Positions 7,709 through 63,895 are shown, counted from the first letter of the stretch. The stretch is DNA of 64,000 nt from Vampirovibrio chlorellavorus (GCA_903866275.1 CAIPMU010000013.1:1-64000); one strand, 5' to 3'. Numbers and translations: made by a program. The notes: generated by a model from the letters alone, not told the origin.

Positions 7709-9027
7709 ATGGGATCTCAGCAAAAAAGCGTGGCCTGAAACAGTTTTTAGTTGCTGTGGCAATCATTTTCCCACTGGTATTCACCGGCTGTACCAAGCCC
7801 AACCCTGCGAGCGAATCAACGTCAGATCATCCAATCACGCTGGAGTTTTGGACGCTGCAACTCGACACGTTTAAATCCACGCTGGAGCCCATGTTTTTAG
7901 AGTACGAGCGCGCGCACCCCAATGTGCGCATTCGCTGGGTGGATGTGCCGTTTTCCGAGGGGCCCAAACGCACGCTGACGGCCATGATGAGCGGTCAAAC
8001 GCCGGATGTAATTAATTTAAACCCGGATTTCTCGGCGATTTTGGCCAACCGAAATGCCTTGATGGATATGAACCAAGCCCTGCCCGCTCGCGTGAAGGCC
8101 ACTTATCTCCCCGTGGCCTGGCAAGCGGCCAGCCTGAATCAACCGGACGGCAAGCCGATCGCCTTTGGGTTGCCCTGGTACGTGACCTCCAGCGTCACGC
8201 TGTATAACAAAACGATTTTGCACAAAGCAGGTTATCAAACGCCGCCCGAAACGTTTGCCCAACTGCCCGCCTTTGCGGAAGCGGTGCGCAATCAAGCCCA
8301 CGCCTATGGGCTCATGCCGGTGATTGCCGAGCATGGCAACTTTTTAAAAGAACTGCAAAAAATTGGCGTGCAATTGTATGATCCCCAAGGGCATGCGGTT
8401 TTTGCCACACCTGCGGCGGCGGATTATTTAGCCCATTACGTGCAACTGTATCAACGCGGCTGGATTCCTGCTGAGGCCATCACCGAGAGCCATCAGGCCG
8501 CCGTGGGGCGCTTTCAGGCCGGGACGTTGGCCACGCTGCAAATTGGCCCCAACTTCCTCAAAATCGTGAAAGAAAACGCGCCGGAGATTTATAAAAACAC
8601 CGGCGTCGCGCCTCAATTTCCTGAAGATGTGGGCGTAAAAGATTTTGCCCTGATGCTGCTGGTGATGCCGGTGAAAAGCGCCCATCCCAAGGAGGCGGTT
8701 GATTTTGCAGCCTTTATGACCAACGCGCAAAACCAGTTGGCGCTGGCCCAAGCGGCGCCAGTGCTGCCATCCATCACCCAAGCGCTGGCCGATCCTTATT
8801 TTGCGATAACATCCGCAGGCGAGAAAAACGGCGACCTGATGGCCCTGGGGCGGAGCATCAGCGCGGGCCAATTGCTCAAGGCAACGGCGGCGTACCAGAT
8901 CAAGCCCAACCAGAACGCCATCAATGAGATTATGGACCACTACGTGCAACTGGCCATGCTGGGCAAGCGCCAGCCACAGGAGGCCCTAACGCAGGCTCAA
9001 CGGGAAATTAATGCTACACTAGAATAG
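7705..9027 (+). CDS. extracellular solute-binding lipoprotein, sugar ABC type
   Basis: A 440-residue family 1 extracellular solute-binding protein, the sugar-binding component of ABC importers. A signal peptide with a lipobox ending in FTGC (Cys near residue 28) indicates lipidation and an extracytoplasmic location. The body has the family features 'WTLQLDTFKSTLEP' and 'GQTPDVINLNPDF'. It is coupled to the DUF3343-like gene by an ATGA overlap. No permease or ATPase gene is adjacent, so it is an orphan in this window. The ligand is unknown; maltose or glycerol-3-phosphate-type ligands are family guesses only. Confidence 0.88.
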   Translation: MNGISAKKRGLKQFLVAVAIIFPLVFTGCTKPNPASESTSDHPITLEFWTLQLDTFKSTLEPMFLEYERAHPNVRIRWVDVPFSEGPKRTLTAMMSGQTPDVINLNPDFSAILANRNALMDMNQALPARVKATYLPVAWQAASLNQPDGKPIAFGLPWYVTSSVTLYNKTILHKAGYQTPPETFAQLPAFAEAVRNQAHAYGLMPVIAEHGNFLKELQKIGVQLYDPQGHAVFATPAAADYLAHYVQLYQRGWIPAEAITESHQAAVGRFQAGTLATLQIGPNFLKIVKENAPEIYKNTGVAPQFPEDVGVKDFALMLLVMPVKSAHPKEAVDFAAFMTNAQNQLALAQAAPVLPSITQALADPYFAITSAGEKNGDLMALGRSISAGQLLKATAAYQIKPNQNAINEIMDHYVQLAMLGKRQPQEALTQAQREINATLE

Positions 9028-9060
9028 AGTGAGCGTTAGCCTGGGTGAGGAACTTCGATT

Positions 9061-10521: not shown

Positions 10522-10567
10522 AAAATTTCGACCAGCGACGTGAATCGCTGATCGAAATAAAATGATT
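10521..10567. terminator. bidirectional terminator between convergent genes
   Basis: A 14-position stem with one mismatch (10525-10538 with 10545-10558, loop CGTGAA) is flanked by an A-run on the left and a T-rich stretch on the right. It sits between the convergent aldehyde dehydrogenase and superoxide dismutase genes, nearer the former. Confidence 0.65.
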
Positions 10568-10622
10568 TTTTTAAAATGCCCATTCAATCCCGTTGCTAAA
10601 TTGTACGTGGATGGGACCTGAT

Positions 10623-11477
10623 TTAACCGTGCAGGATCATGGTTTTGAGGCGCTGATCCACCACAGCCCAGTCGACGTTGCGCATGAAGGCATCTAGGTA
10701 CGCGCCGCGCTTGGTGCCGAAATCGATCATGTAGGCGTGCTCATACACATCCAGCACCAGCAAGGGAATCACGTTCATGGGCACCCATTGGTTGTGGGTA
10801 TCCAGCCCGTAGTTGTGAATGCGGTGATCGCGCATATTGTAGCCCGTCACTGCCCAACCACGCATGGATTTCCCCACGGCGCTGAGGTGCTGCACATAAT
10901 TGTCCCAGCTGCCAAACTCTTCCGTGAAGAGTTTATGCACGAGTTCCGTGTCGGTTGCCGGCGTGCGCTTGCCGCCCAGGTTTTCAAAGTAGGCTTCGTG
11001 CAAAATGGAGCCGTTCAGGGCATAAGTTTGCTCCACATGCAGCTCGCGGAAGGGGCTGTAAGTGGCATTCATTTTGTCCAGTTCCGGGGTCATGGCGCTG
11101 ATTTGACCCTGGATGTCGTTGATCTTTTTCACGTAGCCGTTGTACAGCTCGATGTGCTGGTTGAGCTGATTCGGGCTGATGCCTTCCACGCTGGACAAGT
11201 TGGGGAAGGTCATGGCCTGAATGGTTTCGCCCTTGTTGTAGCCATGCTGGGGGTGTGTGGCGAGAATCGGCTTGCCTGCCGCAGAAGTCAGGCCTTTGGC
11301 CGCTTCGGGTTTAGCGACGGGTGCGGCTTTCTTTTTGTCTGCCGCATTCGCGGTCAGCCGCAGGCTGCTCAAGGCCAACGCGGTGCCACCCAGTGCTGCG
11401 GCCTTCTTTAAAAAATCCCGCCGGTGCATGGGGTGACCCGCATCGGTGCCGGGTTGATGGTCGTCCTGTTGAGTCAT
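10623..11477 (-). CDS. Tat-exported Fe/Mn superoxide dismutase
   Basis: A 284-residue superoxide dismutase with an N-terminal twin-arginine signal (HRRDFLKKAAALGG at residues ~18-31, then a hydrophobic stretch and an Ala-rich cleavage region). The folded, metal-loaded enzyme should therefore be exported. The metal-ligand signature DVYEHAY near residue 250 matches the family's DVWEHAY, and the N-terminal ligands QH...YV..IN and SILHEAY are present. Its role would be removing superoxide in the periplasm or outside the cell. An Ala/Lys-rich linker (~45-70) separates signal and catalytic domain. Iron versus manganese cannot be read with certainty. Confidence 0.93.
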   Translation of the reverse strand: MTQQDDHQPGTDAGHPMHRRDFLKKAAALGGTALALSSLRLTANAADKKKAAPVAKPEAAKGLTSAAGKPILATHPQHGYNKGETIQAMTFPNLSSVEGISPNQLNQHIELYNGYVKKINDIQGQISAMTPELDKMNATYSPFRELHVEQTYALNGSILHEAYFENLGGKRTPATDTELVHKLFTEEFGSWDNYVQHLSAVGKSMRGWAVTGYNMRDHRIHNYGLDTHNQWVPMNVIPLLVLDVYEHAYMIDFGTKRGAYLDAFMRNVDWAVVDQRLKTMILHG

Positions 11478-11623
11478 CGTGGCTCTCCTCTCTACAATCG
11501 CTACTCAAATTTTTTCGTCTAAAAATAAAAATTCTCAATGCGCTTATTCTGCCCCAAAATCATCTAGAAATCGATGCGCCAGACCAGCGAGTTTGCTAAC
11601 AAGTTGGTCAGAATCGAATGAAT

Positions 11624-12844
11624 TTAATTCAGATTCAACAACTCGGCCAAGCGCGGGAGTGGCGACTTGCGGGTGAAGTCCGGCGGATCCTGATAGAGGC
11701 TATAAATGCCCAGGCCAAACCAGAGCCAGTTTTGGGAGTAATAATCGTTCTTGGTGTTCCACTGGCCGCCGGGTTTTAAATTGGGGAGGATTTTTTTACG
11801 CAGCAGCTCTTCCGCCAAGCCGCGATCCTGCATATAAAAGGAGGGCAAAATGGCCCCGTAGACCGCACCGGATTTCAGCTCGGGGTGGCGTACAATGCCG
11901 TCCCAGGTGATGGAAATGGGCACATCCTTGCGGATTTTCCAGTAGCGAGGCAGCATGTTGCCGGTTTTGAGAAAGGCCGTAGCGCGTTTTTCCAGCGGGA
12001 AAAAGAGTCCGTCCAGCCCCACGCGCCAATAGACCCGAATGGCCTCATAGCCAAAATCACTGCGATCATCCAGCGGACTTTCGTACAACTTAATCTGATC
12101 GTTATCCAAGGTCAGCTCCACCCAATCCGGCGGCAGATGCGTTTGGCTTTGCGCCAAGGAGCGGGTTAAAATCTCATAGGAGGAATCCACCAGCGCGGGC
12201 CAGTCATGATCGGCATCCACGGCGGCAAATACCCGATACGCATAAGGCGCAAAGTAAGACGGATTAATCTGGAAAGTGCGACCTTGCTGGGGCCAATCGC
12301 CCGGTAGCAACACCCGGCCAATGGGCATGTCCACGGTCAGGTGATCCCAAATGGCAGGCAGAATTTGCTTGGCATCTTCCAGATACGCGGGGTCTTTCCA
12401 CTCCTGATAGGCCAGCAACAACGACAGGGCGATGTCCTGATCCGCGTCGGTGGCTGAGGTTTTATCCAGCGCGCCCCAAGTGTGATCCGCCCGCTCACCC
12501 CACTTCCAGGAGAACAGATGATCGCCGCGCGGGATTTGCAAATTATCCTTGGCCCAGCGATAGGTATGATCAAACGTGGCTTTGTCGCGGAGCCAAAAGG
12601 CGCGCAGCATCGCATAGGATTGCCCTTCGGACGTGGTCACGTTGCCGTTGAAATCAATCACCCGGCCGTCGGACTGAATGAAGGTGGCCTTATACTGCTC
12701 CCAACTGCCTTTCAGCAGCGCGCGCGCTTCGAGATTTCCGGCATCGGCTCGTGAGGGTAACGGTATGGTGGCCAGCACCGTACTCAAGGCCAAGTTGAAG
12801 AGTAAGCCCAGCAAGGGGCCAACCGGAAAGCGCAATGACCGCAT
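11624..12844 (-). CDS. glycoside hydrolase family 8 (endoglucanase-type)
   Basis: A 406-residue secreted GH8 enzyme, the family of bacterial endo-glucanases such as BcsZ/CelY, as well as xylanases and chitosanases. An N-terminal signal peptide is clear (LLGLLFNLALSTV, then SRADA). The catalytic acid region TSEGQSYAML is near residue 71. The family signature ATDADQDIALSLLLAYQEW near residue 131 fits the published GH8 pattern position by position. It starts 4 bases after the thrS stop, so it is read from the same transcript. No cellulose synthase genes lie nearby, so a biofilm-cellulose role is only a possibility. Confidence 0.93.
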   Translation of the reverse strand: MRSLRFPVGPLLGLLFNLALSTVLATIPLPSRADAGNLEARALLKGSWEQYKATFIQSDGRVIDFNGNVTTSEGQSYAMLRAFWLRDKATFDHTYRWAKDNLQIPRGDHLFSWKWGERADHTWGALDKTSATDADQDIALSLLLAYQEWKDPAYLEDAKQILPAIWDHLTVDMPIGRVLLPGDWPQQGRTFQINPSYFAPYAYRVFAAVDADHDWPALVDSSYEILTRSLAQSQTHLPPDWVELTLDNDQIKLYESPLDDRSDFGYEAIRVYWRVGLDGLFFPLEKRATAFLKTGNMLPRYWKIRKDVPISITWDGIVRHPELKSGAVYGAILPSFYMQDRGLAEELLRKKILPNLKPGGQWNTKNDYYSQNWLWFGLGIYSLYQDPPDFTRKSPLPRLAELLNLN

Positions 12845-15719: not shown

Positions 15720-16427
15720 TTGACAGGCTCAGGACCTTGGCCCATTGCCACGGGGAGATTGCGCCTGAAGGAAGCCGCACAACCCCACGCAATCCGAGTC
15801 GCCATTTTGATGAACCCTTCCCCTATTTACGAGCCTGCCGCCATGGAATCGCTTCCAGACGTCTAGGCCTCGTTTTATTTCCTTGTATTCCTTGTATGAT
15901 TCCCAACCAAACCCAACCCAAAAATGGGATAGACTGTTCAACCGTGTGATTGTCACTGAAAAAAAGGACTTCAGATAAAAAAGGCTGTCTGGCGCAACGT
16001 CAGGGAACCTGATTGAAAACATGAGCCGTGTCCGGCGGGCTTCATTCAGACTTCCTGCAATCACTTCCAAAATCGAAGAGATCAGACCGAATAAGGCTTA
16101 AAGCGATGAGACCTGATGTCACTCCTGCGTTCTCTCTCCAATTCATTAACCCCAGGACGTAAGTCAACCGGTAGCCGGTTGAGTGGGCTTCTCCCGAAAT
16201 TAACCGGGTTGCGTCAGACAGTGATTAGTATATTAAACGTGGTTTATTACGCTGTATATAGTAAGTTAATAATAAAAAACAATTATAAAGAAACCGTCAC
16301 ACGATCGCTGAATCCGTGATCACCCAAACAACCCGGCTTACCCTCGACTCAATCGTCAGTCAGGCCAGAGCATTGGGTCATCCAAGATCTGTGATCACAA
16401 CGATTCACAGCAAATAATTGAGAATTC
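15720..16427. other. 700-base gap without a recognisable gene
   Basis: Open frames here have no SD support and low-complexity or biased composition. A small hairpin (CAACCGG / CCGGTTG near 16159-16175) and an AT-rich stretch at 16220-16290 are the only structure noticed. Confidence 0.5.
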
Positions 16428-16456
16428 TGTCATGCTCGCGAACGTGGACATCCATT
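16428..16456. repeat. half copy of repeat family 1
   Basis: A 29-base stretch matches the left arm of the 6403-6489 inverted repeat at most positions. It directly precedes a copy of repeat family 2. Confidence 0.55.
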
Positions 16457-16473
16457 GTGCCTGATACTCAAGA

Positions 16474-16634
16474 GCACGCCCGCTTTCTCAAAAGAGGCAA
16501 AGCCTCTTTTCCTAAGCCCAAGAGCACCACTGCCACGCCACAGAAAACCACACCTGGAGGGGTTTGGGGAAACAGTTTCCCCAACGGAGGGAGCTTGAGG
16601 GAGGCTAGCCTCCCTCAAGACCCACCAGCAAAAC
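16474..16634. repeat. repeat family 2, copy A (three hairpins)
   Basis: About 160 bases closely related to 39000-39155 and 39212-39375. Three consecutive hairpins are visible: AAAAGAGGC/GCCTCTTTT, TTGGGGAAA/TTTCCCCAA, and a 12-bp stem GAGGGAGGC/GCCTCCCTC extended by CTT/AAG. It has no coding potential and lies between divergently placed gene ends. Confidence 0.8.
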
Positions 16635-16647
16635 CTGAAACCCCATC

Positions 16648-17391
16648 CTAGTTATCATAATCCAGCACAGGAGCCGGACGCCCCGTCAGTTTGGACAACA
16701 CGGGCAGGATTTCATTGCTATGCAAGCGATGCCCTTCGCTGTTGGCAAAACTCATCTGCACCACGCCTTTTTTATCGATCACAAAGGCAGAGGGCCAGGC
16801 GATACCTTTTTTGGAGACGTTGGGAATGCCGAAATCATGAATCAGCTTTTTGCCCTCATCCGGAATCACGGGGAACGTGAGCCCGTGTTCCCCCACGGAT
16901 TGCATGGCATGGACTTTGTCATCGGCACTGATGGCGATAATTTCAGCATCCTGCGCTTTGAAGTCGGAGAAGTGATTTTGGAGGTTGGTCAGTTGCGCGC
17001 CGCAAACACTGCAGAAACTGCCCTGATAAAAAATGAGGACTACATTTTTCTGGTTGCGATAATCGGAGAGCTTAATGGCCTTGCCTTCAGCGGTGGTGGC
17101 GGTAAAGTCGGGCGCTTTGCGACCCACGGGCACCGGATCCAGAAACTCGTAAGCATCGGTATGCATGAGATCCGGGGACAGGGACACGGGCTCAGATGGA
17201 CCCGCAGCGGCCACCGGGGTGCCAGAAGATGCCGTTGTGGATGCAGTCGATGACGCGGTTGATGCGCCTGTACCGGTGGCCATACCCCCAATCGATTGTC
17301 CGGGCGGGGTGCTGGTGGTTAGGGCGTAAACCACACCCATCGCCACAACCAGACTGGCTAATACGATCCAAAGACGGGCTGATGTTTTCAT
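16648..17391 (-). CDS. membrane-anchored peroxiredoxin/AhpC-TSA-like protein
   Basis: A 247-residue thioredoxin-fold protein of the AhpC/TSA-redoxin type. The N-terminus has one hydrophobic segment (WIVLASLVVAMGVVYAL, residues 8-24), followed by a Ser/Thr/Ala-rich linker (25-65). The redox domain therefore lies outside the cytoplasm, either anchored or released. The active site is SFCSVCGAQL near residue 130, a CxxC placed where peroxiredoxins have the peroxidatic Cys, so thiol peroxidase or disulfide reductase are both possible. AGAGG precedes the ATG. With the exported superoxide dismutase it suggests a periplasmic oxidative-stress set. Confidence 0.85.
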   Translation of the reverse strand: MKTSARLWIVLASLVVAMGVVYALTTSTPPGQSIGGMATGTGASTASSTASTTASSGTPVAAAGPSEPVSLSPDLMHTDAYEFLDPVPVGRKAPDFTATTAEGKAIKLSDYRNQKNVVLIFYQGSFCSVCGAQLTNLQNHFSDFKAQDAEIIAISADDKVHAMQSVGEHGLTFPVIPDEGKKLIHDFGIPNVSKKGIAWPSAFVIDKKGVVQMSFANSEGHRLHSNEILPVLSKLTGRPAPVLDYDN

Positions 17392-54089: not shown

Positions 54090-54161
54090 GGGCCTATAGC
54101 TCAACGGTGGAGCAGGGGACTCATAATCCCTTGGTTGTTGGTTCGAATCCAACTGGGCCCA
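54090..54161 (+). tRNA. tRNA with CAU anticodon, probably tRNA-Ile2
   Basis: A full cloverleaf can be drawn: acceptor GGGCCTA/TGGGCCC, D-stem GCTC/GAGC, anticodon stem GGGGA/TCCCT with loop CTCATAA (anticodon CAT), T-stem GTTGG/CCAAC with loop TTCGAAT. The sequence resembles tRNA-Ile whose CAU is modified to lysidine (compare E. coli ileX) more than elongator tRNA-Met. CCA is not encoded here; the next bases are CAC. The 3' 44 bases are element-derived (attL). Confidence 0.92.
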
Positions 54162-54162
54162 C
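54118..54162 (+). repeat. attL core (45 bp)
   Basis: Identical to 63257-63301. It lies inside the functional tRNA gene and supplies the 3' part of it. Confidence 0.95.
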
Positions 54163-54210
54163 ACTCCTACTCTTAATTTTCAGGATCGACATATTTAAAA
54201 AAGATGGCTG

Positions 54211-54230
54211 TGGGACACTCACGGGACAGT
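54211..54230. promoter_or_regulatory. arm-type integrase site, left
   Basis: TGGGACACTCACGGGACAGT is an imperfect tandem repeat with an 11-base period. It matches 18 of 20 bases at the right end (63110-63129). It lies 49 bases inside attL. Confidence 0.6.
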
Positions 54231-54428
54231 TCAAACCCACAAGCGCCCATAACTATCAAAACATATAGCAAGCCGGGACAGGCTCTCCCCCTGGTTTCCC
54301 GATGGCTCTGGAGCCTTTAAGCTTGTTCAATGTTGCAGGATACCCCACAGGGAAAGACGAGAGCACCTGAATGAAGTCTTTCGGGTGTCATTCTCTGGCC
54401 TTCTTTAAAAACATCGATTCTGAAGCCT

Positions 54429-54664
54429 TTAAAAGGCATTGTCCTGATGTGCGGATGCAAAAACAGCCTTAAGAGGTCGCCTTGCATTTCGCTCCATCAT
54501 TGCTAGGTGCTTTGCTGAATCGAGAGTGAGGATGTAGTCTTTACGGTCGAAACCCGCTACCCGACATTGCTCATTTTTGAGCAGTAAGACATAGTCTTGA
54601 TTTTCGGCCTGCCACCTTAAGGGTTTTTCTCATTTTTGAGTAAAACCACATAATCCTGATGATC
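54429..54664 (-). pseudogene. relic of a phage AntA/AntB-type antirepressor
   Basis: Minus-strand translation gives 'NQDYVLLLKNEQ' followed by 'DRKDYILTLDSAKHLAMMERNAR', the core of AntA/AntB antirepressors, where these residues precede a Gly-x-x-Ala-Arg-x-Tyr-Phe-Ile end. Here it has no start, is cut off soon after ERNAR, and the first segment is duplicated in another frame (DHQDYVVLLKNEK at 54664-54626) with stops between. It is therefore a broken gene. The rest of 54163-54428 shows no intact gene. Confidence 0.6.
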
Positions 54665-54666
54665 GC

Positions 54667-54921
54667 TTAGAGTGCTTTCAGCCTGGAGATAATCTCTTCC
54701 ACTTCTTCAGGGAGAAGTTCCAAGGTTTTTTCAAGAAAGAAATGAATGGTTTGCACCTTGATGTGCCAATGGGCCCGCTTTTTCGTCTTGCCGGGATCTC
54801 GCTTGGCCGTGTTTGGGAGAATATCCCCGGCCTCGCACCAATCGCGCACCTTCGCTTCAGTAGCCGGGAAGTAGTCGTTTAAGACGCTAGCAAACTCTCG
54901 GGTAGAAACAAAGGGCTTCAT
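54667..54921 (-). CDS. small HTH DNA-binding protein (excisionase-like)
   Basis: An 84-residue basic protein. Residues 4-60 (FVSTREFASVL...TEAKVRDWCEAGDI...AHWHIK) fit a MerR/excisionase-type winged helix with an N-terminal recognition helix and a C-terminal wing. Excision or transcription control of the element is likely by position. It lies 25 bases after the RHH gene. Confidence 0.62.
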   Translation of the reverse strand: MKPFVSTREFASVLNDYFPATEAKVRDWCEAGDILPNTAKRDPGKTKKRAHWHIKVQTIHFFLEKTLELLPEEVEEIISRLKAL

Positions 54922-54946
54922 CTTGGCTTCCTTATTCAGCGTTAGT

Positions 54947-55189
54947 CTAGTGGGTGGTGCCTTGCGCTTCGGGTTCTATGATCTTGTCTAAGTGCTCAGG
55001 GTTGCTTCTTAACGCCTTAATGGCGGCGTCTATGAGCTGGCCCGTGCTGATAGACTTGCTTTCGCTGGTCTGTTTTATCCACTCATTAGACTCTGCATCC
55101 ACTCTACAGTTCAAAGGCTGCCGGGGTTTCATTCCTTTAGATTCGAGTGTTGGCTTTCTTCCGCCATGGTCTCCGCCTCTGGGTGACAT
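54947..55189 (-). CDS. ribbon-helix-helix-type regulator
   Basis: An 80-residue protein. ATG 55189 has GAGAGG seven bases upstream. After a basic Gly/Arg/Lys-rich N-terminus, 'PLNCRVDAESNEWIKQTSES...STGQLIDAAIKAL' matches a ribbon-helix-helix fold. It probably regulates the adjacent divergent promoter region, where a palindrome sits at 55237-55256. Confidence 0.65.
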   Translation of the reverse strand: MSPRGGDHGGRKPTLESKGMKPRQPLNCRVDAESNEWIKQTSESKSISTGQLIDAAIKALRSNPEHLDKIIEPEAQGTTH

Positions 55190-55236
55190 CAAGAAACCTC
55201 TCTTTCATCTTTGCTATTTGCAATACAGTTTATCAG

Positions 55237-55256
55237 AAAGCAAGAAGTCTTGCTTT
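55237..55256. promoter_or_regulatory. palindromic operator candidate
   Basis: AAAGCAAGAAGTCTTGCTTT has perfect 9-bp arms around a 2-base centre. It lies 48 bases before the RHH start and between divergent genes, a natural place for autoregulation. Confidence 0.5.
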
Positions 55257-55322
55257 TGGCTGCTTTAAAACCCGATGAGGTGCATTTCTCACACATGAGG
55301 GAACCTGACTATGGAAAACGTC

Positions 55323-55350
55323 TTGCAATTTCCATAATGATTGTTATGAT
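55323..55350 (+). promoter_or_regulatory. promoter of the lone plus-strand element gene
   Basis: TTGCAA (55323-55328) and TATGAT (55345-55350) with 16-base spacing predict a start near 55357 and a ~120-base leader. Confidence 0.55.
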
Positions 55351-55476
55351 TGGCGGGTTAGCAAATTGTATTTCATTTTCCTAAAGTGGTTCTTTCAGTG
55401 TAAAAGCCTTCATAGGCCAAGCTGGAAAGGCCTCAGGATTTTGGAATGCCCCCATAAAGCCGAAAGGAACAGAGAG

Positions 55477-55791
55477 ATGGTAGCGCAACCCTTGAGTAAT
55501 CAGACACTTCTTGATGATAGCGAGAGCGAAAAAAGGGAAGGAAGCCCCCAAGCTTTAGGGCTGATTGGGAATAAGCCTGACCTTCAAGCCCTTGCCTATG
55601 AGACCGAAGGCCCTGCTATGGCCGCATTCCCTGACAACCAACAAGAAGATCAAAAGAATGTAATAGATTTAAGCGAAAGCCTTGCGGATATTCTGATGGA
55701 GGGAATCAGAAGCGATAAGGCTTTCAGGCAATGGTTCATTCAAACCTTTGATCCTGAAGTCACTCTTTTACCGTCGCACTCGCACGATTGA
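55477..55791 (+). CDS. hypothetical acidic protein
   Basis: A 104-residue unrecognised protein, the only plus-strand gene of the element. AAGGAA precedes ATG 55477. The N-terminal 65 residues look disordered. A helical C-terminal part (VIDLSESLADILMEGIRSDKAFRQWFIQTF) may be the functional region. The divergent orientation suggests separate control from the rest of the element. Confidence 0.55.
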   Translation: MVAQPLSNQTLLDDSESEKREGSPQALGLIGNKPDLQALAYETEGPAMAAFPDNQQEDQKNVIDLSESLADILMEGIRSDKAFRQWFIQTFDPEVTLLPSHSHD

Positions 55792-56363
55792 GAAGCCTTA
55801 AAGCAATAAGGCCGGGCATGAGCAATGCTCAGTTCTCGGCTAATGTGCCTCAAGGGGGGGCTACCTGTCGGCGGCTTACACGGTTAAGACGCTGAAAGGC
55901 TTTCCCACAAGTTTGATAGGGGCCAAGGTCAATGATGAGTCATTCTCTGCTCATGGCTTATTACTTCATCAGGGGAGAAGCCAGCGAGAACCCCTAGACC
56001 GCTGGGTCATACTGTTTGTTTGAAGGCTGAAGAGCCATTGATAGGGTAGGCTGTGGGTTCTTTGCCTGTGTTAGAACATGGGCTTAAGCCAAAGCCACCT
56101 GAAAACATTTGATTGATGTATGAATCTGAATGGGGATATACCCTACCCCCTACCCCTGACGGATCAGGATGCTTGCCGATAAAAATATAAATGAATTTGA
56201 AAAATTGAAATGTCAAGTTCTCAACCCGTCAAAAACATCTGAACAAGGTTTAGGTACTCCCTGGAGGGGTACCCGGTGCGGGTAACGCAGAAGCTCAGGC
56301 TCTCGGCATTTTTTGTTTTTATTTTTGTAGTTCGTTTCGGTTTTTAAATCATATGGACAATAT
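55792..56363. other. non-coding segment of the element
   Basis: About 570 bases without a supported gene; the composition is mixed, with a CCCTACCCCCTACCCC run near 56142-56157. It could hold an origin or a decayed gene. I see no clear repeats. Confidence 0.35.
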
Positions 56364-56395
56364 GAAAAAAAGCCCCAAGATTTTGATCTTGGGGC
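56364..56395 (-). terminator. terminator of the element's main operon
   Basis: A perfect 10-bp stem GCCCCAAGAT / ATCTTGGGGC (56372-56381, 56386-56395) is followed on the minus strand by TTTTTTTC. Confidence 0.85.
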
Positions 56396-56426
56396 AAACA
56401 AAGGAGTAATTATGGGCCTGGAAAGA

Positions 56427-57050
56427 CTATGAGTGTTTCAGTTTTTCTATAGCCTCCGAAACCCCTTCTAGCAGACCTTTTGAAAGGTCTATCATTGAAG
56501 CATCATTGTGGATGTAAATACCCTTCAGATCGATCAGATTATTCAGATGAAACTTGGCTGTGCTGGTCACTCTCCGAGCATTGGCGCGGGTTAAATCAAA
56601 CCGAGTACCCTCGCCAGCATCAGAGCCCAAAGCGCTTAAGATTGCACTTGCGCTTTTGTCATAGCGTTCCAATGTGAGCGCCACTTTTTTAAAGGCTTCA
56701 TCGACTTCCCTGCAAGCCTCCAAGTATCCCTGAACGGCATCCTCCGTTGCCGAGGCTCTATTAAAGCGCTCTTTTTGGGCTTCCTCTGCCAAGGTCTGGG
56801 ATTTTTTACTTTCGGCTTGGATGATCGCACCGGATAGGTCTTCAATCTTGTCGAGATGAGAAAGGCGCTTCCGGTTGATCTCATCCAAGGCCCGCACCGC
56901 ATTAACTTCGCCTAAAGCGGCGGCCAACTGGTGCGATTTTCGCAGCGTTTCCATTTCCTGAAGTTCATTTTGTAATGTTTCCCGCTGATGCTCCAAGCCT
57001 TCTATGGTCTCTTGCCAGCCGATAGAAGTCTTTGCGAATAATGTAAACAT
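56427..57050 (-). CDS. coiled-coil protein
   Basis: A 207-residue protein. AAGGAG precedes the ATG. Residues ~12-110 are long charged heptad-like helices (ETIEGLEHQRETLQNELQEM, INRKRLSHLDKIEDLSGAI), with a more globular C-terminal third. Not recognised. It is the last gene of the main element operon. Confidence 0.6.
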   Translation of the reverse strand: MFTLFAKTSIGWQETIEGLEHQRETLQNELQEMETLRKSHQLAAALGEVNAVRALDEINRKRLSHLDKIEDLSGAIIQAESKKSQTLAEEAQKERFNRASATEDAVQGYLEACREVDEAFKKVALTLERYDKSASAILSALGSDAGEGTRFDLTRANARRVTSTAKFHLNNLIDLKGIYIHNDASMIDLSKGLLEGVSEAIEKLKHS

Positions 57051-57066
57051 TTGTATGGTCTCCTTC

Positions 57067-57273
57067 TTAATTAACAGTTTGGGATTCTACGATTTCACAT
57101 TGTTGTTTTAGCCATTCATATTTTTTATCCAAGGCCGTGATTTCTTGGCTTAACGGGCAGAGCGTTGAAGCAACCCTTCCGTTTTCAGTTTCCAATTGCT
57201 TTTGTTCATGGCGTAAGGCTAAAAGCTTGAGTGCTGCCTTATTCCGTTCTTTAATGAGAATGTTTGTTTTCAC
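57067..57273 (-). CDS. small coiled-coil protein
   Basis: A 68-residue protein with a GTG start at 57273 and AAGGAG seven bases upstream. Almost entirely helical (ALKLLALRHEQKQLETENGRV). It could pair with the next coiled-coil gene, 16 bases downstream. Function unknown. Confidence 0.55.
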   Translation of the reverse strand: MKTNILIKERNKAALKLLALRHEQKQLETENGRVASTLCPLSQEITALDKKYEWLKQQCEIVESQTVN

Positions 57274-57300
57274 GGGTTTCTCCTTTTGGTTACGGGTACT

Positions 57301-59157
57301 TTATGGGGTTGGGATTGGGTTTTGAATTGAAAATGGGAGGTATCGGTGCGGCTTGCCGTGATAAGCCTCTAAAAACTGTCTGCTTTCACGGTCAAACCAA
57401 AGCTTGAAAGAAGGTTCGTTACCATCCTCTCGCTGTTTGTAGCAATGCAAGTATGCATCTGGCCAAGCCTTGATGGCGCTGGCTTTATACTTCTTGCCTT
57501 TCACGGTGATCTCCTCATCATCCGAGGGGTTTTCCCGTAGTAGTTCCTCTTTAGGCTTATTCCGATAGACTGCCAGCACATTGTCCGCTAGATCGGTTAT
57601 CGCCCCCGAGCCCCGAACATCATGCTTCCGGGGTGCCTGGTTCTCGCCTTCATCCCGCTTGCGGGCATGGGCAACCAAATGAACATGTGCGCCCGTGCGG
57701 TTCTTAAAATCACAGAGGCTTTCCAGAAAGCGCTTTTGGGCGTTGTAATCATCTTCATCCAGCCCGACTTTAAGCAGTGAATCCACGATGAAATGTAAGA
57801 CGCCATAGCGCTTGCGGGCATATTCAAACACTTCAAGCAAGCGATCAGCCTTGGCGGTGCCAATCAGATTAAAAAGCCATAGGCGCTCCCCAAGCCATTC
57901 ATAAGCCGCTGCCCTGTAAGCATTTGAAGGATTTCCCATGGCTGTGAGCATGGGCAGAAGATGCCGCCCAATCAACTTGGCAGGCGGAACCTCCATGGAG
58001 GCAATGCAAACCCGTTCACCTAGGGCCATGCGGTGAACCATGCAATGGAGTAGCATTTCACTCTTACCGTGTCCGTTGAATCCACTCCAAATAGTCAATT
58101 GCCCTTCTTCAAAGCGAATTTCCCCATGCGTTTTGGGCCACGGCAAGGTGATCTGATTCCGTGTATCATTGGCCCCAGATAAAAGCTGCTCTACCTGGTC
58201 TTGAAATTCCCCTGCGTTTCGCAGTTCTTCCGGGTCTTGATATTTTGCATCTGCCAGGCAGTCATTAAAAAACTCTGCACCCATGCCCGCTTGAAGGGCT
58301 TCGTTTGGGTCTTTGTAGTAGTACAGATCCACCACTTTGCAACGATGAGCGCCCAAGCGGCTTATCAGTTCCTTGGTTGCCTCTTGCCCTGCGGCATCCC
58401 GATCCATGCAAATATAAATTTCCCTGAATCCATCCAGATGATGAAACTCATGATCTACCCATTGTTGCTTGTTTCCCCCGCCCGCGCCGAAAGGCACGGA
58501 CAAGGCCGGGTGTCCCCATTGGAAAACGGTTAGCGCGTCAATCTCACCTTCACAAAGCACCACATGCCGGGCATTGGGATCGATGGATTGCCAGCCAAAT
58601 AATATGGGCTCTGAATCTTTGGAGGCGGCAATTCGTTTCTTTCCTTTTTCATCCCGATCCAGACTGATGGATTTCCACATGATCAATTCATCCCCGCGCT
58701 TGTACGGGAAAATAATATCTCGGCCCCGCTCCCCGACCTGGTAGGCCTTAATGGTCTCAGGCGTTAGTTTCCGTTGGGTCGTGAGATAGGCCAGCACGTC
58801 CAATTGTGGGATCTGGCATTTCGGCTTCTCGGGTCGCTTATAGCTTTTGGCAGGCAGGGAAACAAAGCCGTCATTGCGAACGCCTAGATAGTCTCGGATT
58901 TCGGCCAAGGTAGCGGACAAGGAAAGCCGCTTTGTGAGCCTCCATAAGTCAATCAGATCGCCCCCTTCGTCCGTGGCAAAGTCTTTCCAGACGCCCGCCT
59001 TGCCGCCGGATAGATGAACCTTGAGAGAGCTTCCGGGCTCCCCAGTAATGGAGCCACAAGCCCATTCATGGCCATCTTTTTTCCCGGCCGGTAAAAGCAT
59101 AGTGGCCACAGTGTGGGCTTTTCTGGCTAAACGGTTGGATAATTCTCCGGCATCCAT
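57301..59157 (-). CDS. primase-helicase (Toprim plus DnaB/Twinkle-type)
   Basis: A 618-residue replication protein. The N-terminal region (GGKAGVWKDFATDEGGDLIDL near 55-75) resembles phage primases but without a visible Cys4 zinc ribbon. A Toprim domain follows (LCEGEIDAL near 205, CMDRDAAGQ near 250). A RecA-fold helicase of the T7 gp4/Twinkle type comes last (Walker A SGFNGHGKS near 362, Walker B-like FIVDSLLKV near 460, HARKRDEG). ATG 59157 is the last base of the previous gene's TAA (TAATG) and has GAGG nine bases upstream. It lets the element replicate its own DNA. Confidence 0.88.
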   Translation of the reverse strand: MDAGELSNRLARKAHTVATMLLPAGKKDGHEWACGSITGEPGSSLKVHLSGGKAGVWKDFATDEGGDLIDLWRLTKRLSLSATLAEIRDYLGVRNDGFVSLPAKSYKRPEKPKCQIPQLDVLAYLTTQRKLTPETIKAYQVGERGRDIIFPYKRGDELIMWKSISLDRDEKGKKRIAASKDSEPILFGWQSIDPNARHVVLCEGEIDALTVFQWGHPALSVPFGAGGGNKQQWVDHEFHHLDGFREIYICMDRDAAGQEATKELISRLGAHRCKVVDLYYYKDPNEALQAGMGAEFFNDCLADAKYQDPEELRNAGEFQDQVEQLLSGANDTRNQITLPWPKTHGEIRFEEGQLTIWSGFNGHGKSEMLLHCMVHRMALGERVCIASMEVPPAKLIGRHLLPMLTAMGNPSNAYRAAAYEWLGERLWLFNLIGTAKADRLLEVFEYARKRYGVLHFIVDSLLKVGLDEDDYNAQKRFLESLCDFKNRTGAHVHLVAHARKRDEGENQAPRKHDVRGSGAITDLADNVLAVYRNKPKEELLRENPSDDEEITVKGKKYKASAIKAWPDAYLHCYKQREDGNEPSFKLWFDRESRQFLEAYHGKPHRYLPFSIQNPIPTP

Positions 59158-60023
59158 TACTTGCAACCTCTGGCCATCGGATCACTGTTATCGTTTTCGG
59201 GCTTGGCTGTGTGCCCGCCTGTTTCCCGCTGCCAGATTATGATCTTGCTGGAAATATGCGCCATGCTGGTTATGCTGGTGCCATGGAAACGGTGATCCAA
59301 CAAGTAATCAATGGCTGCTTTTACCTCCTGCAAACTGAATGTTTTCAGCAGGTTATCAGCGGCCTTGAGGCCTGCAAAAAACCATGGCTTGGAGAATTGC
59401 CCTTCTCTTGCGCCTCGTTGCTTGAATCCGTCCGACAAATAGGTGACAAGCTCACGGCTTTGAGGAGAGGTTTGCTTGCTGGCCTTTAAAGTTGTTTTTT
59501 CCTCCCCCGCTTTAGCGGGTGTAGGGGTATTATTTCTTTTACCTTTATTACCCTTTATTATGGGGGGTTCCTCAGGCTCTCTCTGAGCTGCTTTCCGGGT
59601 TGGCTGTGGTGCACTGTGTGGTGCACTATGCGGTGCATCTTCTGGTGCATTGTCCGGTGCATCTTGTGGCGTATTTTTATCAAGTTTATCCTGTAAATCG
59701 GCGTAGTTATTGAGTTTGAGTCTGGCCCACTTTGTGGCCCATTCTGTGGTGTATATCATGCGCTCATTTTCAAGCATGCTTATAAACTTACCCACAGTGC
59801 GCCGGTTCCAGCCCCATCTTGTGGCCAGTTGCCGCTCAGAGGTTGCAATTTCTCCGATCTCAAGTAGGAGAATCCGCCCATGATAAGGCACTTTATGAGG
59901 TGTGAAGGCCGCCTGATTCATTAAGTCAATCCATGCTTCTAATTCTGTGAATTTTCTGTTTTTAGGCCATAGCCAGTGGTCTTCAATTTTTCGGTATAGG
60001 CGATAGTATCCGGGCTTACTCAT
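59157..60023 (-). CDS. winged-helix replication initiator-like protein
   Basis: A 288-residue protein. The N-terminal ~100 residues (YYRLYRKIEDHWLW, EIATSERQLATRWGWNRRTVGKFISMLENERMI) look like the DnaD/phage O-type winged helix of replication initiators. A hinge with repeated Asp/Asn/His-x-Ala-Pro units (~118-140, coded by imperfect ~12-base repeats at 59608-59669) leads to a C-terminal helical domain. The frame is open upstream, but ATG 60023 fits the family and overlaps the previous gene by 8 bases. It is coupled to the primase-helicase and probably loads it at the origin. Confidence 0.72.
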   Translation of the reverse strand: MSKPGYYRLYRKIEDHWLWPKNRKFTELEAWIDLMNQAAFTPHKVPYHGRILLLEIGEIATSERQLATRWGWNRRTVGKFISMLENERMIYTTEWATKWARLKLNNYADLQDKLDKNTPQDAPDNAPEDAPHSAPHSAPQPTRKAAQREPEEPPIIKGNKGKRNNTPTPAKAGEEKTTLKASKQTSPQSRELVTYLSDGFKQRGAREGQFSKPWFFAGLKAADNLLKTFSLQEVKAAIDYLLDHRFHGTSITSMAHISSKIIIWQRETGGHTAKPENDNSDPMARGCK

Positions 60024-60423
60024 TGACAGAGGCCCCCGCAATTTCCAGACTCTTGTCAACGGAGGCCGCCAGAATCTGAAGCCGCTCAAAGGGTAGCCCT
60101 TGAATGGCCGTTGCGATAGTGGCCACAATCCGGCCTGACAATTCACGGGAAAATTCAGCATCGGCCTGGGCATGTCGCGCGGTTTCAAGTTCTTGATGTA
60201 AAGCTGGAAGCTCACCTGTGAAGCTACTGATAACAATGCTTTTTAGCTTGAATTGGTGGAAGCGCAAGAAACTAGCCCCGAGATGGAAAAACAAACGATT
60301 GGCCCCAAAGTAGGGATTCAATTTTTTGAAGGCCGTTTGACCATGCTTCAATGACAGGACAAGCCAAAAGGGGCTTAAAAACTTGTCAATTAAAGAATAT
60401 GTGGCACAATTAGATTTAGACAT
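60016..60423 (-). CDS. hypothetical element protein
   Basis: A 135-residue protein with GGAG nine bases before ATG 60423. No known domain. A hydrophobic/aromatic N-terminal half (FLSPFWLVLSL, LFFHLGASFLRF) is followed by a helical half ('ALHQELETARHAQADAEFSRELSGRIVATI' in part). The overlap with the initiator gene implies co-expression. Confidence 0.55.
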   Translation of the reverse strand: MSKSNCATYSLIDKFLSPFWLVLSLKHGQTAFKKLNPYFGANRLFFHLGASFLRFHQFKLKSIVISSFTGELPALHQELETARHAQADAEFSRELSGRIVATIATAIQGLPFERLQILAASVDKSLEIAGASVNE

Positions 60424-60538
60424 AGGGAATGTCTCCTTAAACTTCTTCTACGGCTCTATAAGCACCGACTCTGCCACGTTTTCTAAAATATTAGAAAGGG
60501 TGGCTTTGTCGTTTAGAGTTAAAATGATTTCCGTCTGC

Positions 60539-60568
60539 AAAGCCGCCCCGACCTCTCAGGGCGGCTTT
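60539..60568. terminator. hairpin terminator
   Basis: A perfect 10-bp stem AAAGCCGCCC / GGGCGGCTTT (60539-60548, 60559-60568). It lies 22 bases beyond the stop of the minus-strand HTH gene. The T-run is short. Confidence 0.6.
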
Positions 60569-60589
60569 GTCAAACCTCTCACTGGTTCC

Positions 60590-60820
60590 CTACAGACTGG
60601 CTTGAATTGGTTGATTTTGAGATTCAATCCATTTAAAAAATGCTTGCTCATCAATCAACACACGACGGCCAGCACGTTTGATAACTCCAAAACTATCAAG
60701 GCCATTTGTTCTGGAATGGAAAATCATCCATCTCAATGCAGACACAGAAGGCCAGGGGTGATATTCATCGAATTTTGCAGCGGGTATAAGGCGTGTAGAC
60801 GTAGAATTTGTTAATTGCAT
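60590..60820 (-). CDS. small AlpA/excisionase-like HTH protein
   Basis: A 76-residue protein; GGAGG lies ~10 bases before the ATG. The layout (SALRWMIFHSRTNGL...VIKRAGRRVLIDEQAFFKWIE) matches the HTH_17-type winged helix of excisionases and AlpA regulators. Its promoter region carries an unusual repeat cluster (60885-60937), suggesting self-control. Confidence 0.65.
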   Translation of the reverse strand: MQLTNSTSTRLIPAAKFDEYHPWPSVSALRWMIFHSRTNGLDSFGVIKRAGRRVLIDEQAFFKWIESQNQPIQASL

Positions 60821-60884
60821 TAGTTGATAACCTCCAGTTGATGACTATGGAGATTATTATGCTTTGAAACGCATGAAGTTCAGG

Positions 60885-60937
60885 TTGTAAAACTACTTGT
60901 AGAACTCTCCAAGTAGTTTTACAAGTAGTTCTTGAAA
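60885..60937. promoter_or_regulatory. operator-like inverted and direct repeat cluster
   Basis: Perfect 15-bp arms TTGTAAAACTACTTG (60885-60899) and CAAGTAGTTTTACAA (60910-60924) face each other, and a further CAAGTAGTT follows directly at 60922-60930. Thus one core occurs three times, twice direct and once inverted. No U-tract follows, so an operator or iteron role fits better than a terminator. Confidence 0.6.
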
Positions 60938-60944
60938 ATGCCGA

Positions 60945-61994
60945 TTAATCGTTCCGATCAAGCCCCATACAGTGAGGAGCGTTTCTCTTTTTTTCTCTAC
61001 TAGGCAGTAAGCTATCGCCTAAACCTTCTTTTGAGTCATTTAAAAATGATTTTACTCTGCATTTTAATCGCCCCAAATCCTTACTCCAATCTTGTGGCCA
61101 TAATGTTTCGTTTTCTCCATATACGGCAAGGGCCAAGTTTTCATGTGAGAGTTTTCTACATGGTGCGTTCCAAAGGGCTTTGAAAAGTAAATAGCATTGT
61201 CCAGCAGGGCTTCTTTTTTCATCTACAATAAGTTCTCGCATTAGGTGATCGAGTGTTACACCAATGGGGAGAGCTTCTTGTTGAGGGGGTGAACATAATT
61301 GAGAGGATTCTCTCATCTCAATGCTTTCAGGCTCGGAATACTCCTTAACATCAAGTAACCAAGTTTCTTTGGGAAAGAATGATGGTGGTTCTTGGAAAAG
61401 ACTTTTTAGCAATTCTTTGCACTCTCTGGGAATATAGGGGAAGCAAAACTCAAATAGCGGAAGGGTGCTGCTAATTTTATATGCATTTTCAATTGCGGCA
61501 CGTTTTTCTTCAACCCAACCTTCTGTTCGATCAAGGGCTTCTTCTGTTGAGATTCTGGGAATATGCATAAAAATATCGTTTTCGTAAGTGTACAGAAGAA
61601 TCTTTTTCCTTGTTTCTGCATCGGCACCCTGGATTTGACAAAGGGTCATTTCACCTTGGTTTTCGTAAAGTTCAACATCTTGAATGGCTGGATCTTGGCT
61701 AAACTGCCGCATTTCCCAGAAGGCCCAGAGAAAATCCCATTGTCCAGAGGTTACAAGGTCTGGTATGGATCGGCTTGAATACCCTTCCATAATACGGCTG
61801 TTTACAAGTCTACTCTTCAGAAGCAATTCAATATCATCTATAGAAAAGTTGCTTAAGAGCCAAGAAAGCTTTTTGTCAGGTAAGGTTATCTCTTCTCTGG
61901 AAACCCCAATAAGGTTACAAATTTTTGAAATCGAGGTGCTTTCTGCTTCATTCAAATTCTGTATATTCTCTTGTTCTGATTCTGCATTTTCCAC
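60945..61994 (-). CDS. unknown element protein in the integrase operon
   Basis: A 349-residue protein, not recognised. The start is GTG at 61994, one base after the integrase stop (TAG A GTG), with AGGGG just upstream, so it is coupled to the integrase. A TTG at 62015 is an alternative. It is soluble, Glu/Ser-rich and has Leu-rich helices ('LSWLLSNFSIDDIELLLKSRL' in part). The C-terminal ~90 residues (SHENLALAVYGENETLWPQDWSKDLGRL in part) read like a winged-helix fold. It might be a regulator or cargo gene. Confidence 0.6.
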   Translation of the reverse strand: MENAESEQENIQNLNEAESTSISKICNLIGVSREEITLPDKKLSWLLSNFSIDDIELLLKSRLVNSRIMEGYSSRSIPDLVTSGQWDFLWAFWEMRQFSQDPAIQDVELYENQGEMTLCQIQGADAETRKKILLYTYENDIFMHIPRISTEEALDRTEGWVEEKRAAIENAYKISSTLPLFEFCFPYIPRECKELLKSLFQEPPSFFPKETWLLDVKEYSEPESIEMRESSQLCSPPQQEALPIGVTLDHLMRELIVDEKRSPAGQCYLLFKALWNAPCRKLSHENLALAVYGENETLWPQDWSKDLGRLKCRVKSFLNDSKEGLGDSLLPSREKKRNAPHCMGLDRND

Positions 61995-61995
61995 T

Positions 61996-63084
61996 CTACC
62001 CCTGAACCCCCACAAACATCTTCTTGTTCATCCGTTCAACGACTTCCGCAGTATGGGTTTTTGTTAAATGGCTATATCGCTGGGTCACTTGAATGGTTTT
62101 GTGGCCCAATATTTCCGCAATTTCCAGTAAGCTGGCCCCGCCCATAGCAAGATTAGAGGCGCAAGTGTGCCTTAAATCATGAAAGTGAAAATCTGGGACT
62201 TCTGACTTTTTAAGAGCGGCTTCCCACTGTTTCCGAATCTGTTTAGGCGCTTTACCGTCAGAACGAGGGAACAAGAGATCCGTATCCAGCCGCCGATCCT
62301 TGTGGTGATACTTTAAAATCTTTCTTAAGTCCTGACCGATTGGCACTGAGCGGCGTTCATCGTTTTTTGTCTGTTCAAGCCGAATTATATTGTGCTTAAA
62401 ATCCACATTTTGCCAGCGAAGCCCCAGTATTTCACTCCATCGCGCACCCGTACTTAAGGCAATCAAAACAACCGGCCAAAGGTAAGTCTCTGTACTCTGA
62501 GAAACGGCATCTAGGAGTGTATTCAATTCTGAAGCAGAAAGAAAACGCACACGGCCTCTTGGCTCTTTAGGCTTTCGCACATTGAGCATTGGATTCTCAT
62601 CCATCCAACTCCAATCCTTGACCGCACAAGCAAATGCAGCGCTCAGGGTGGCCAAATACCTGTTCACTGTTCCAGCGGCCTTTTTTGTCCCCTTTACAGG
62701 CTCACCATTGCGGGTTATGGGCTCATTCAATAATTTATTTCGGCACTCTGTCAACATCGCCGGGGTAATGTCTTTCAAGTGGTATCGCCCAAGTTTGGCA
62801 CTCCACCATGCAAGATGTGATTCCCGTTTATTCTGATCGGAGCGCAGCTTGGGCAACTCCTCCAATTTATAGCGGGCAATCAGATCCTCAAGTGTCCTGC
62901 GCTTGGATTCATACACTTTGAAATAGCGTCCTTCCCGTATGGCCGCTTCGGTTTGTTGAGCCCAGATGCGGGCATCGGTGCGCCGCTCAAAAGTGGCCGT
63001 TTCCGTGGGATGCCCCTTCAAGCGAATTTTGACCCTGTAAGAAATCGTTCCATCTTTTTCTTGCCGCTTCTCGATAGTAGCCAT
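61996..63084 (-). CDS. int: tyrosine recombinase integrase
   Basis: A 362-residue phage-type integrase that catalyses recombination between attP and the tRNA attB. An N-terminal AP2-like arm-binding domain (residues 1-60: KDGTISYRVKIRLKGHPTETATF in part), a SAM-like core-binding domain (~65-165) and a catalytic domain follow. Active-site residues are seen in STGARWSEILGLRW (Arg), FHDLRHTCASNL (His-x-x-Arg) and TQRYSHL (Tyr). ATG 63084 is preferred over an upstream frame extension that would run through the arm-site repeat. It lies 173 bases from attR. Confidence 0.94.
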   Translation of the reverse strand: MATIEKRQEKDGTISYRVKIRLKGHPTETATFERRTDARIWAQQTEAAIREGRYFKVYESKRRTLEDLIARYKLEELPKLRSDQNKRESHLAWWSAKLGRYHLKDITPAMLTECRNKLLNEPITRNGEPVKGTKKAAGTVNRYLATLSAAFACAVKDWSWMDENPMLNVRKPKEPRGRVRFLSASELNTLLDAVSQSTETYLWPVVLIALSTGARWSEILGLRWQNVDFKHNIIRLEQTKNDERRSVPIGQDLRKILKYHHKDRRLDTDLLFPRSDGKAPKQIRKQWEAALKKSEVPDFHFHDLRHTCASNLAMGGASLLEIAEILGHKTIQVTQRYSHLTKTHTAEVVERMNKKMFVGVQG

Positions 63085-63109
63085 ATAGCCTGCTTTCCAA
63101 GGTTTTCCG

Positions 63110-63129
63110 TGGGACACTCATGGGACACT
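63110..63129. promoter_or_regulatory. arm-type integrase site, right
   Basis: TGGGACACTCATGGGACACT is an exact TGGGACACT tandem with an 11-base period, 26 bases upstream of the integrase ATG. It is the counterpart of 54211-54230. The position suggests that integrase binding also represses its own gene. Between it and attR lie smaller inverted repeats (TCTCAATC/GATTGAGA, TATAAGCC/GGCTTATA). Confidence 0.6.
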
Positions 63130-63256
63130 TAGGGCCAATATCCTTCTAAAAATCTCAATCAGCCTCAAGAGGAGTATAAGCCTTAAAGGCTCTCAAAACA
63201 AGGCTTTTTAAGATTGAGATTGATGGAGGCTTATAGGCTAAATATCAGCGGAATCC

Positions 63257-63301
63257 GACTCATAATCCCTTGGTTGTTGGTTCGAATCCAACTGGGCCCA
63301 C
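63257..63301 (+). repeat. attR core (45 bp) and original tRNA 3' end
   Basis: Identical to attL. It is followed by CA and then TTTTTT, so the displaced chromosomal end reads discriminator A, CCA, and a T-run. It is a tRNA fragment without D-arm or 5' acceptor strand. Confidence 0.95.
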
Positions 63302-63331: not shown

Positions 63332-63895
63332 ATGTCCTCTGAGAGATCTTCAATTCCACTTGAATTAAAACGAAAAATATTGGTTGAGGCTGGACATAGA
63401 TGTGCAATCCCTACATGCAGACATCCCAGTGTAGAAATACACCATATAATCCCTTATGCTGAAGTAAAAGAACATACCTACGAAAATTTAATTGCACTAT
63501 GCTCAAACTGTCATACAAGGTGTCGTAACGATTCTAAACAAGGGAATATAAGCCAGGGGGAAATAGATCGAAAATCCATCCAAATGTACAAACAAAATCT
63601 AATATTCCTTTCTGGGTTGTTAACTCAATTCGAAAGAAATGTGTTGGATTATTTAGCAAATGAACGACAAATTTTAACCATTCATGGCTTAATCTCTATT
63701 AAAACTTTACTCGACTTGAAATTAGTTGCTATTAATAATGTGTCGGTAACGACCAACTGGAAAATTAATGATTCACCTTATTATGATGAACCCACAGTGT
63801 TTAGCATAATGCTTACTACTAAAGGTAGTGAATTTATTTCTGCTTGGCAAAACAATAATAAAACTTACGAGCCCTTACAAAATTATCTTAATTAA
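63332..63895 (+). CDS. HNH endonuclease-like protein
   Basis: A 187-residue protein. The N-terminal ~65 residues hold an HNH nuclease motif with zinc cysteines (CAIPTC, VEIHHIIPYAE, ENLIALCSNCHTRC). The C-terminal ~110 residues are unrecognised, possibly a winged helix. Base composition is clearly more AT-rich than the chromosome to the left, suggesting transfer. It lies just outside attR, so it belongs to the chromosome flank or to a second element in tandem. Defence or homing functions are possible for such genes. Confidence 0.82.
   Translation: MSSERSSIPLELKRKILVEAGHRCAIPTCRHPSVEIHHIIPYAEVKEHTYENLIALCSNCHTRCRNDSKQGNISQGEIDRKSIQMYKQNLIFLSGLLTQFERNVLDYLANERQILTIHGLISIKTLLDLKLVAINNVSVTTNWKINDSPYYDEPTVFSIMLTTKGSEFISAWQNNNKTYEPLQNYLN

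Follow-up and report, generated by a model that had tools for sequence, protein, structure and literature searches.

A satellite-like island at a tRNA-Met gene of Vampirovibrio chlorellavorus and its relatives in two phyla

How would a mobile island travel if it brings its own integrase and replication genes but nothing for virions or mating? We address this question for a 9,139-bp element in a 64,000-nucleotide stretch of the Vampirovibrio chlorellavorus genome (GCA_903866275.1 CAIPMU010000013.1:1-64000, hereafter the window). A first-pass annotation, made from the sequence alone, had described a compact, satellite-like integrative element with its own replication module in a little-studied phylum; the host order is Vampirovibrionales, whose phylum is indeed that one, and the description has been strengthened by the relatives reported below. 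The answer that we find reasonably likely is that the element is an intact, satellite-like hitchhiker island, probably carried by a helper phage. Its ends and integration module consist of the following features:

54090..54162, + strand: intact tRNA-Met(CAT), the target gene (ARAGORN; Rfam RF00005, 70.6 bits)
54118..54162, + strand: attachment repeat 1, 45 bp, the 3' part of the intact tRNA-Met (exact repeat)
63257..63301, + strand: attachment repeat 2, 45 bp, a tRNA fragment at the far end (exact repeat)
61996..63084, - strand: tyrosine integrase, likely start MATIEK, in a frame that opens at 63117 (PF00589, phrog_1)
60945..61994, - strand: integrase-coupled gene, 349 aa, in the position of iolg in phage-inducible chromosomal minimalist islands (PICMIs; junction sequence)
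60590..60820, - strand: xis-like excisionase of HTH_17 type, 76 aa (homologues; weak phrog_9668 and PF12728 matches)
54210..54231, + strand: candidate arm-type integrase site GTGGGACACTCACGGGACAGTT (direct repeat D11)
63109..63130, + strand: candidate arm-type integrase site GTGGGACACTCATGGGACACTT, just upstream of the integrase gene (direct repeat)

The borders, found by a repeat search of the window and measured start to start, are two exact copies of a 45-bp sequence. This core matches only two places in the 3.0-Mb draft assembly (20 contigs) even with up to two mismatches allowed, which excludes a chance origin; the far copy scores 25.7 bits in Rfam, under the 29-bit gathering score. Both the exact repeats in a tRNA gene and the integrase (PF00589, E 4e-36; phrog_1, E 2.5e-79) thus stand as first described, and together they give the element a unique, specific attachment site with an integrase of its own. 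Inside these borders the GC content is 0.40-0.52, as against about 0.54 across most of the window. Nearly all main genes point leftward: the integrase, the 349-aa gene (whose GTG start lies one base past the integrase stop), the xis-like gene, a small open reading frame (ORF), a replication initiator, a primase-helicase and two genes for proteins of 68 and 207 aa, after which a strong terminator-like hairpin closes the array, a feature that we count in favour of an intact island. To the left of the hairpin follow an Arc-like regulator and then an 84-aa helix-turn-helix (HTH)-like protein. For the xis-like protein the PHROGs excisionase match alone is weak (E 0.04), as is its AlpA-type homology; it is 34-58% identical to genes adjoining related integrases.

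The replication module comprises:

59157..60023, - strand: DnaD/O-like replication initiator, 288 aa (phrog_2514, phrog_186, phrog_345)
57301..59166, - strand: Toprim/DnaB primase-helicase, 621 aa (Pfam, phrog_239)
59610..59669, - strand: candidate iterons of a replication origin, five 12-bp direct repeats within the linker part of the initiator (repeat test)
60016..60240, - strand: small ORF overlapping the initiator start, no family

The pairing of an initiator-like gene with a Toprim/DnaB primase-helicase, as first proposed, is supported by family matches for both (phrog_2514 'DnaD-like helicase loader', E 3e-20, and phrog_345 'O-like', E 4e-5, for the former; Toprim_2, E 2e-12, DnaB_C, E 3e-7, and phrog_239, E 5e-114, for the latter), but the initiator probably starts at 60023 and not at 60236. 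The candidate iterons have a mean identity of 73%, a value reached by none of 1,000 synonymous-codon shuffles when all places and periods were scanned, and by one of 2,000 at the chosen place; a general test with a stricter threshold, run first, gave no signal. These repeats may equally reflect a recent tandem duplication in the coding linker.

Searches of Pfam, PHROGs and NCBIfam with the ten main and seven further ORFs of the element gave no match to a head, tail, terminase or relaxase family; a family missing from these libraries would escape detection. Nor was any coupling protein or type IV secretion system family found among the ORFs, as would mark an integrative and conjugative or mobilizable element, and none of the unknown genes is a known structural phage gene in these libraries. 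The reported lack of virion, packaging and mating genes therefore holds for all 17 ORFs, and because of the lack of packaging and mating genes we propose that transfer depends on a helper.

Further support for a satellite-like island comes from its relatives (designated below by locus, L, or genome, G). The window integrase is 50-54% identical to integrases elsewhere in its own genome, in G005, in G003 and in Legionella adelaidensis, and related integrases with 42-54% identity occur in 9 of 398 Pseudomonadota genomes. A tRNA gene (Met, Thr, Arg, Ala, Leu, Tyr or Lys) adjoins most members of this family, most encode a xis homologue, and GGGACACT- or GGCACACT-type sites lie close to the ends of many; the Legionella and G005 elements have terminal site pairs resembling GTGGGACACTCACGGGACAGTT and GTGGGACACTCATGGGACACTT. 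With its integrase (about 50% identity), xis homologue, GGGACACT-type end sites and a tRNA repeat within the family's 45-50 bp, the window element fits this family. Several relatives have island ends that fall off their contigs; five others have exact repeat pairs of 45-50 bp, 6.1-14.1 kb apart:

L051, Legionella adelaidensis: tRNA-Met, 13.3 kb, exact repeats
G005 element: tRNA-Thr, about 11.8 kb, exact repeats
L075: tRNA-Arg, 7.5 kb, exact repeats
L076: tRNA-Ala, 14.1 kb, exact repeats
L080: tRNA-Met, 6.1 kb, exact repeats

Across this family, one integration module (integrase, coupled gene, xis and end sites) is combined with several kinds of replication gene and cargo. The gene after the integrase begins at or near the integrase stop in the window, L020, L057, L059, L079 and L080 and differs each time; pairwise comparison of these coupled genes gave no convincing homology (best E about 0.006, L079 against Legionella). 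After it come, in most members, xis and then a replication gene of varying kind: the initiator/primase-helicase pair in the window and L051, Prim-Pol/AAA in L057, DUF3987 in L059 and L080, a Toprim primase in L075 and an O-like protein in L020, with L079 showing integrase, xis and initiator before its contig ends early. The cargo includes the type I Zorya set (ZorA, B, C, D), found with type I restriction genes in a second island of the same genome (contig 14:1-20558; L020 2214-10558, L039 906-10065), which has a related integrase and xis, carries the O-like replication protein and ends at a tRNA-Thr fragment.

The replication module, in turn, appears with different integrases. A search of 382 genomes of the class recovered full-length relatives of the primase-helicase from just three, the window genome, G001 (same genus) and G007 (same family); two weaker partial matches lay elsewhere. 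In G007 (L017) homologous initiator and primase-helicase genes lie between two tRNA-Glu copies, an 86-nt near-repeat spaced 11,201 bp apart, together with a toxin-antitoxin pair, SocA/Panacea and HGGxSTG genes; in G001 the primase-helicase adjoins a tRNA-Thr integrase, and an AlpA-like gene is present there too. Despite the differing integrases and tRNAs, these three primases form one supported clade (96/93) in a tree that adds 41 sequences, almost all of phage or viral-contig origin. That one module recurs in three elements of Vampirovibrionales, each at a different tRNA, speaks for a mobile island. Its nearest outside relatives are of phage type (46% identity to Pseudomonas phages) or lie in the Legionella element; the single-sequence first scans of genome contigs and of the viral set had yielded few useful matches.

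A possible connection to packaging comes from terminase-small-like genes in L080 (its terminal gene, E 4e-7) and L086, and from two viral contigs, L096 (1-8905) and L092 (1-8379), in which a related integrase and xis are followed by capsid and portal genes. The former adds a protease and a large terminase, the latter a primase and a small terminase, and by their gene content both resemble capsid-forming satellites.

Among known systems, the layout read from the sequence is that of the PICMI phage satellites of Vibrionaceae (PMC10803314), without their hallmarks. In PICMIs, AlpA/xis, the integrase and an integrase-overlapping gene are needed for excision, a primase for replication and a phage for spread, which takes place as concatemers (PMC10803314). 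The gene order is shared, an integrase followed by a gene that overlaps or abuts it, then AlpA/xis and then a primase; in the window these are the integrase, the HTH_17-type xis-like gene and the primase-helicase. Both systems have very few genes, lack capsid-remodelling genes and have integrase-coupled genes that are mutually unrelated between elements. On the other hand, PICMIs reside at fis in Vibrio hosts and encode a DUF3987/DUF5906 primase, whereas our element lies at tRNA-Met in a host that is not a Vibrio and pairs a Toprim_2 and DnaB_C protein with a separate initiator; the DUF3987 primase is present in the relatives L059 and L080.

Transferless tRNA and tmRNA islands with tyrosine integrases are likewise a described class, one tmRNA island of which is carried by a jumbo phage (PMC12595487). 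The Pseudomonas intY/AlpA islands I23, I44 and I55 of this class share with the window family a tyrosine integrase, an AlpA-like gene, direct repeats of an RNA gene, the lack of autonomous transfer genes and defence cargo in related islands, but they are larger, with a common region of about 18 kb (YqaJ, HTH, Gp2-like), a tmRNA target and 14-bp repeats. Given that the plan of integrase, coupled gene, xis and primase is known from PICMIs and that transferless islands have been described, calling this an undescribed system, as the first-pass annotation did, was too strong. Its suggestion of a PICI-type element (phage-inducible chromosomal island) is not supported either: Gram-negative PICIs (PMC6092414) do resemble the element in having a specific attachment site, an integrase, an AlpA-like gene, a replication gene and no tail genes, but no PICI-specific gene was found, the interference and packaging families having been sought in general Pfam, PHROGs and NCBIfam scans rather than with a dedicated PICI gene set. 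Tycheposons, first described in picocyanobacteria, are similar by description in their tyrosine recombinase and tRNA borders (PMC10872708).

A close individual likeness is L051 (NZ_LR134418.1), at the same tRNA-Met isoacceptor, with exact 47-bp repeats 13,261 bp apart, similar end sites and identities to the window of 51% for the integrase, 44% for xis and 46% for the initiator plus primase-helicase. It differs in the direction of its integrase relative to the tRNA, in its initiator sequence and in the position of its primase in the tree, and its cargo of PIN, SocA/Panacea and HGGxSTG genes forms no part of the likeness.

By analogy with PICMIs and the transferless tmRNA islands, we propose that the element is excised, replicates on its own and is packaged by a helper. 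Upon induction the integrase and the xis-like protein, perhaps with the integrase-coupled gene, would recombine the 45-bp repeats, freeing a 9.1-kb circle and leaving the whole tRNA gene in the chromosome. The initiator may bind the repeats within its own gene, as lambda O does, and load the primase-helicase, with host polymerase yielding circles or concatemers. A helper, most likely a phage, would then package the DNA, which would integrate at tRNA-Met in the recipient cell; at other times the Arc-like and small HTH proteins would keep the element quiet.

Two other explanations draw on the same replication genes. An integrative plasmid-like replicon would excise, replicate autonomously and move through transformation or general transduction, needing no specific helper; the initiator and primase-helicase could sustain this, and the absence of a packaging gene agrees with it. 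We regard it as unlikely: no partition or stability genes were recognised in the element, the gene order is that of satellites, and some relatives have the small-terminase-like genes. Quite unlikely, too, is a prophage remnant, that is, a temperate phage whose late region was deleted while its ends, integrase and early replication genes stayed in place. Late-gene deletion is common, and the initiator and primase-helicase are of phage type, with matches in 1,433 phage records and the same O-like/primase pair in phage AF. However, the ends are exact and the core genes open, no phage protein matches the window integrase at E 1e-40, and the three Vampirovibrionales primases form a clade of their own. 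Elements without virion genes are also present at other tRNAs and in further genera (L017, 11.2 kb; L051, 13.3 kb; L080, 6.1 kb; L075, 7.5 kb); since the relatives are compact islands without virion genes, and no larger homologous prophage was found among them, we do not take a remnant as the first choice. Finally, islands with only an origin of transfer (oriT) are known, but conjugative transfer in trans, with an oriT served by the relaxase of another element, is very improbable here and the conjugative or mobilizable reading was rejected, with no relaxase or coupling protein matched in the element's ORFs (oriT itself was not searched for) and the Legionella record with the cousin element typed non-mobilizable in PLSDB.

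The satellite-like, helper-carried island that we favour thus rests in part on a family of islands with related integrases, xis genes, arm sites and exact tRNA repeats, seen in the same genome, in relatives, in Legionella and in further Pseudomonadota, but several points weigh against it. The portal family PF04860 and the terminase family PF03354 are absent from the host assembly, other terminase families not having been searched, and the helper would therefore be external or of another type. No homologue of the 349-aa or the 207-aa protein turned up among phages, plasmids and viral contigs, and for the 349-aa protein the 382 class genomes and the family libraries were negative as well. In the integrase tree the tRNA islands are mixed with some phage-like contigs that carry related integrases.

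A full-text literature search returned nothing on Vampirovibrio genomic islands with an integrase or on Melainabacteria phage satellites, and the mobile elements of Vampirovibrionales are almost undescribed. Relative to the searched literature, the integrase lineage that spans two phyla, and the exchange of replication modules within it, appear to be new. It is tempting, at somewhat less than even confidence, to see here the first phage-satellite lineage of Vampirovibrionales, one of minimal islands in which a cross-phylum, tRNA-targeting integrase and xis are joined to exchangeable replication modules and mobilised by external phages of these bacteria. How small a mobile island can be, and what carries it, become testable questions, and the integrase with its end sites provides a signature for detecting further islands.

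The remaining features of the element are small proteins and a terminator:

57067..57273, - strand: unknown small coiled-coil ORF, 68 aa, no convincing family (Pfam/PHROGs/NCBIfam)
56427..57050, - strand: unknown all-helical coiled-coil protein, 207 aa, final gene of the leftward array
56372..56395, - strand: intrinsic-terminator-like hairpin, 10-pair stem and T run, just past the 207-aa gene
55471..55791, + strand: possible small opposite-strand gene, about 105 aa (ORF only)
54947..55192, - strand: Arc/ribbon-helix-helix-like regulator, 81 aa (phrog_3180, E 1e-4)
54667..54921, - strand: small HTH-like protein, 84 aa, possible second regulator or excisionase (phrog_1300 excisionase, E 0.18, weak)

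The Arc-like match bears out the small regulator noted at the outset. A single-sequence model of the 207-aa protein is all helix with a mean predicted local distance difference test (pLDDT) score of 63; that of the 349-aa protein reached a pLDDT of 37 and was not used.

Some further observations concern the relatives. The integrase cassette seems to have been flipped between the two groups of islands: in Vampirovibrionales (window, L057/L058, L020) the integrase is distal to the intact tRNA and points towards it, while in the Pseudomonadota islands checked (L051, L075, L080) it occupies the tRNA-proximal end and faces away from the tRNA. Relative to the tRNA, the window and L051 have their end sites in the same orientation. 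The L080 island (6119-12327) is complete between exact repeats of 47 bp; with integrase, coupled gene, xis, DUF3987 primase and the small-terminase-like gene, it is a candidate satellite of very small size. In L017 a second related integrase (15781-17036) begins just past the far tRNA-Glu copy, and tandem elements are possible there.

Others concern the insertion site. The SNF2 gene left of tRNA-Met is conserved in congeners, where the tRNA is not adjacent to it; an empty site is for this reason not demonstrable at the same locus. In G005 tRNA-Met is single and unduplicated. In G008 and G010 repeats at tRNA-Met surround other integrases (V1 type), with no prophage recognisable by eye. G008 also has the whole tRNA-Met with two extra 5'-half copies of 37-39 nt (contig 13:52217-52518, in L064), and G009 has one extra 5'-half copy in inverted orientation. 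Immediately outside the right attachment repeat, at 63332-63895 (+ strand), an HNH-endonuclease gene lies in a GC-poor stretch (about 36%); the gene was not found beside the SNF2 gene of congeners. Further along contig 13, to the right of the window, L021 (3300-7851) is part of a surface-polysaccharide cluster marked by repeated duplication: it holds several related glycosyltransferase genes in tandem, of which one is shortened, and nearby are two O-antigen-ligase-like genes, also in tandem.

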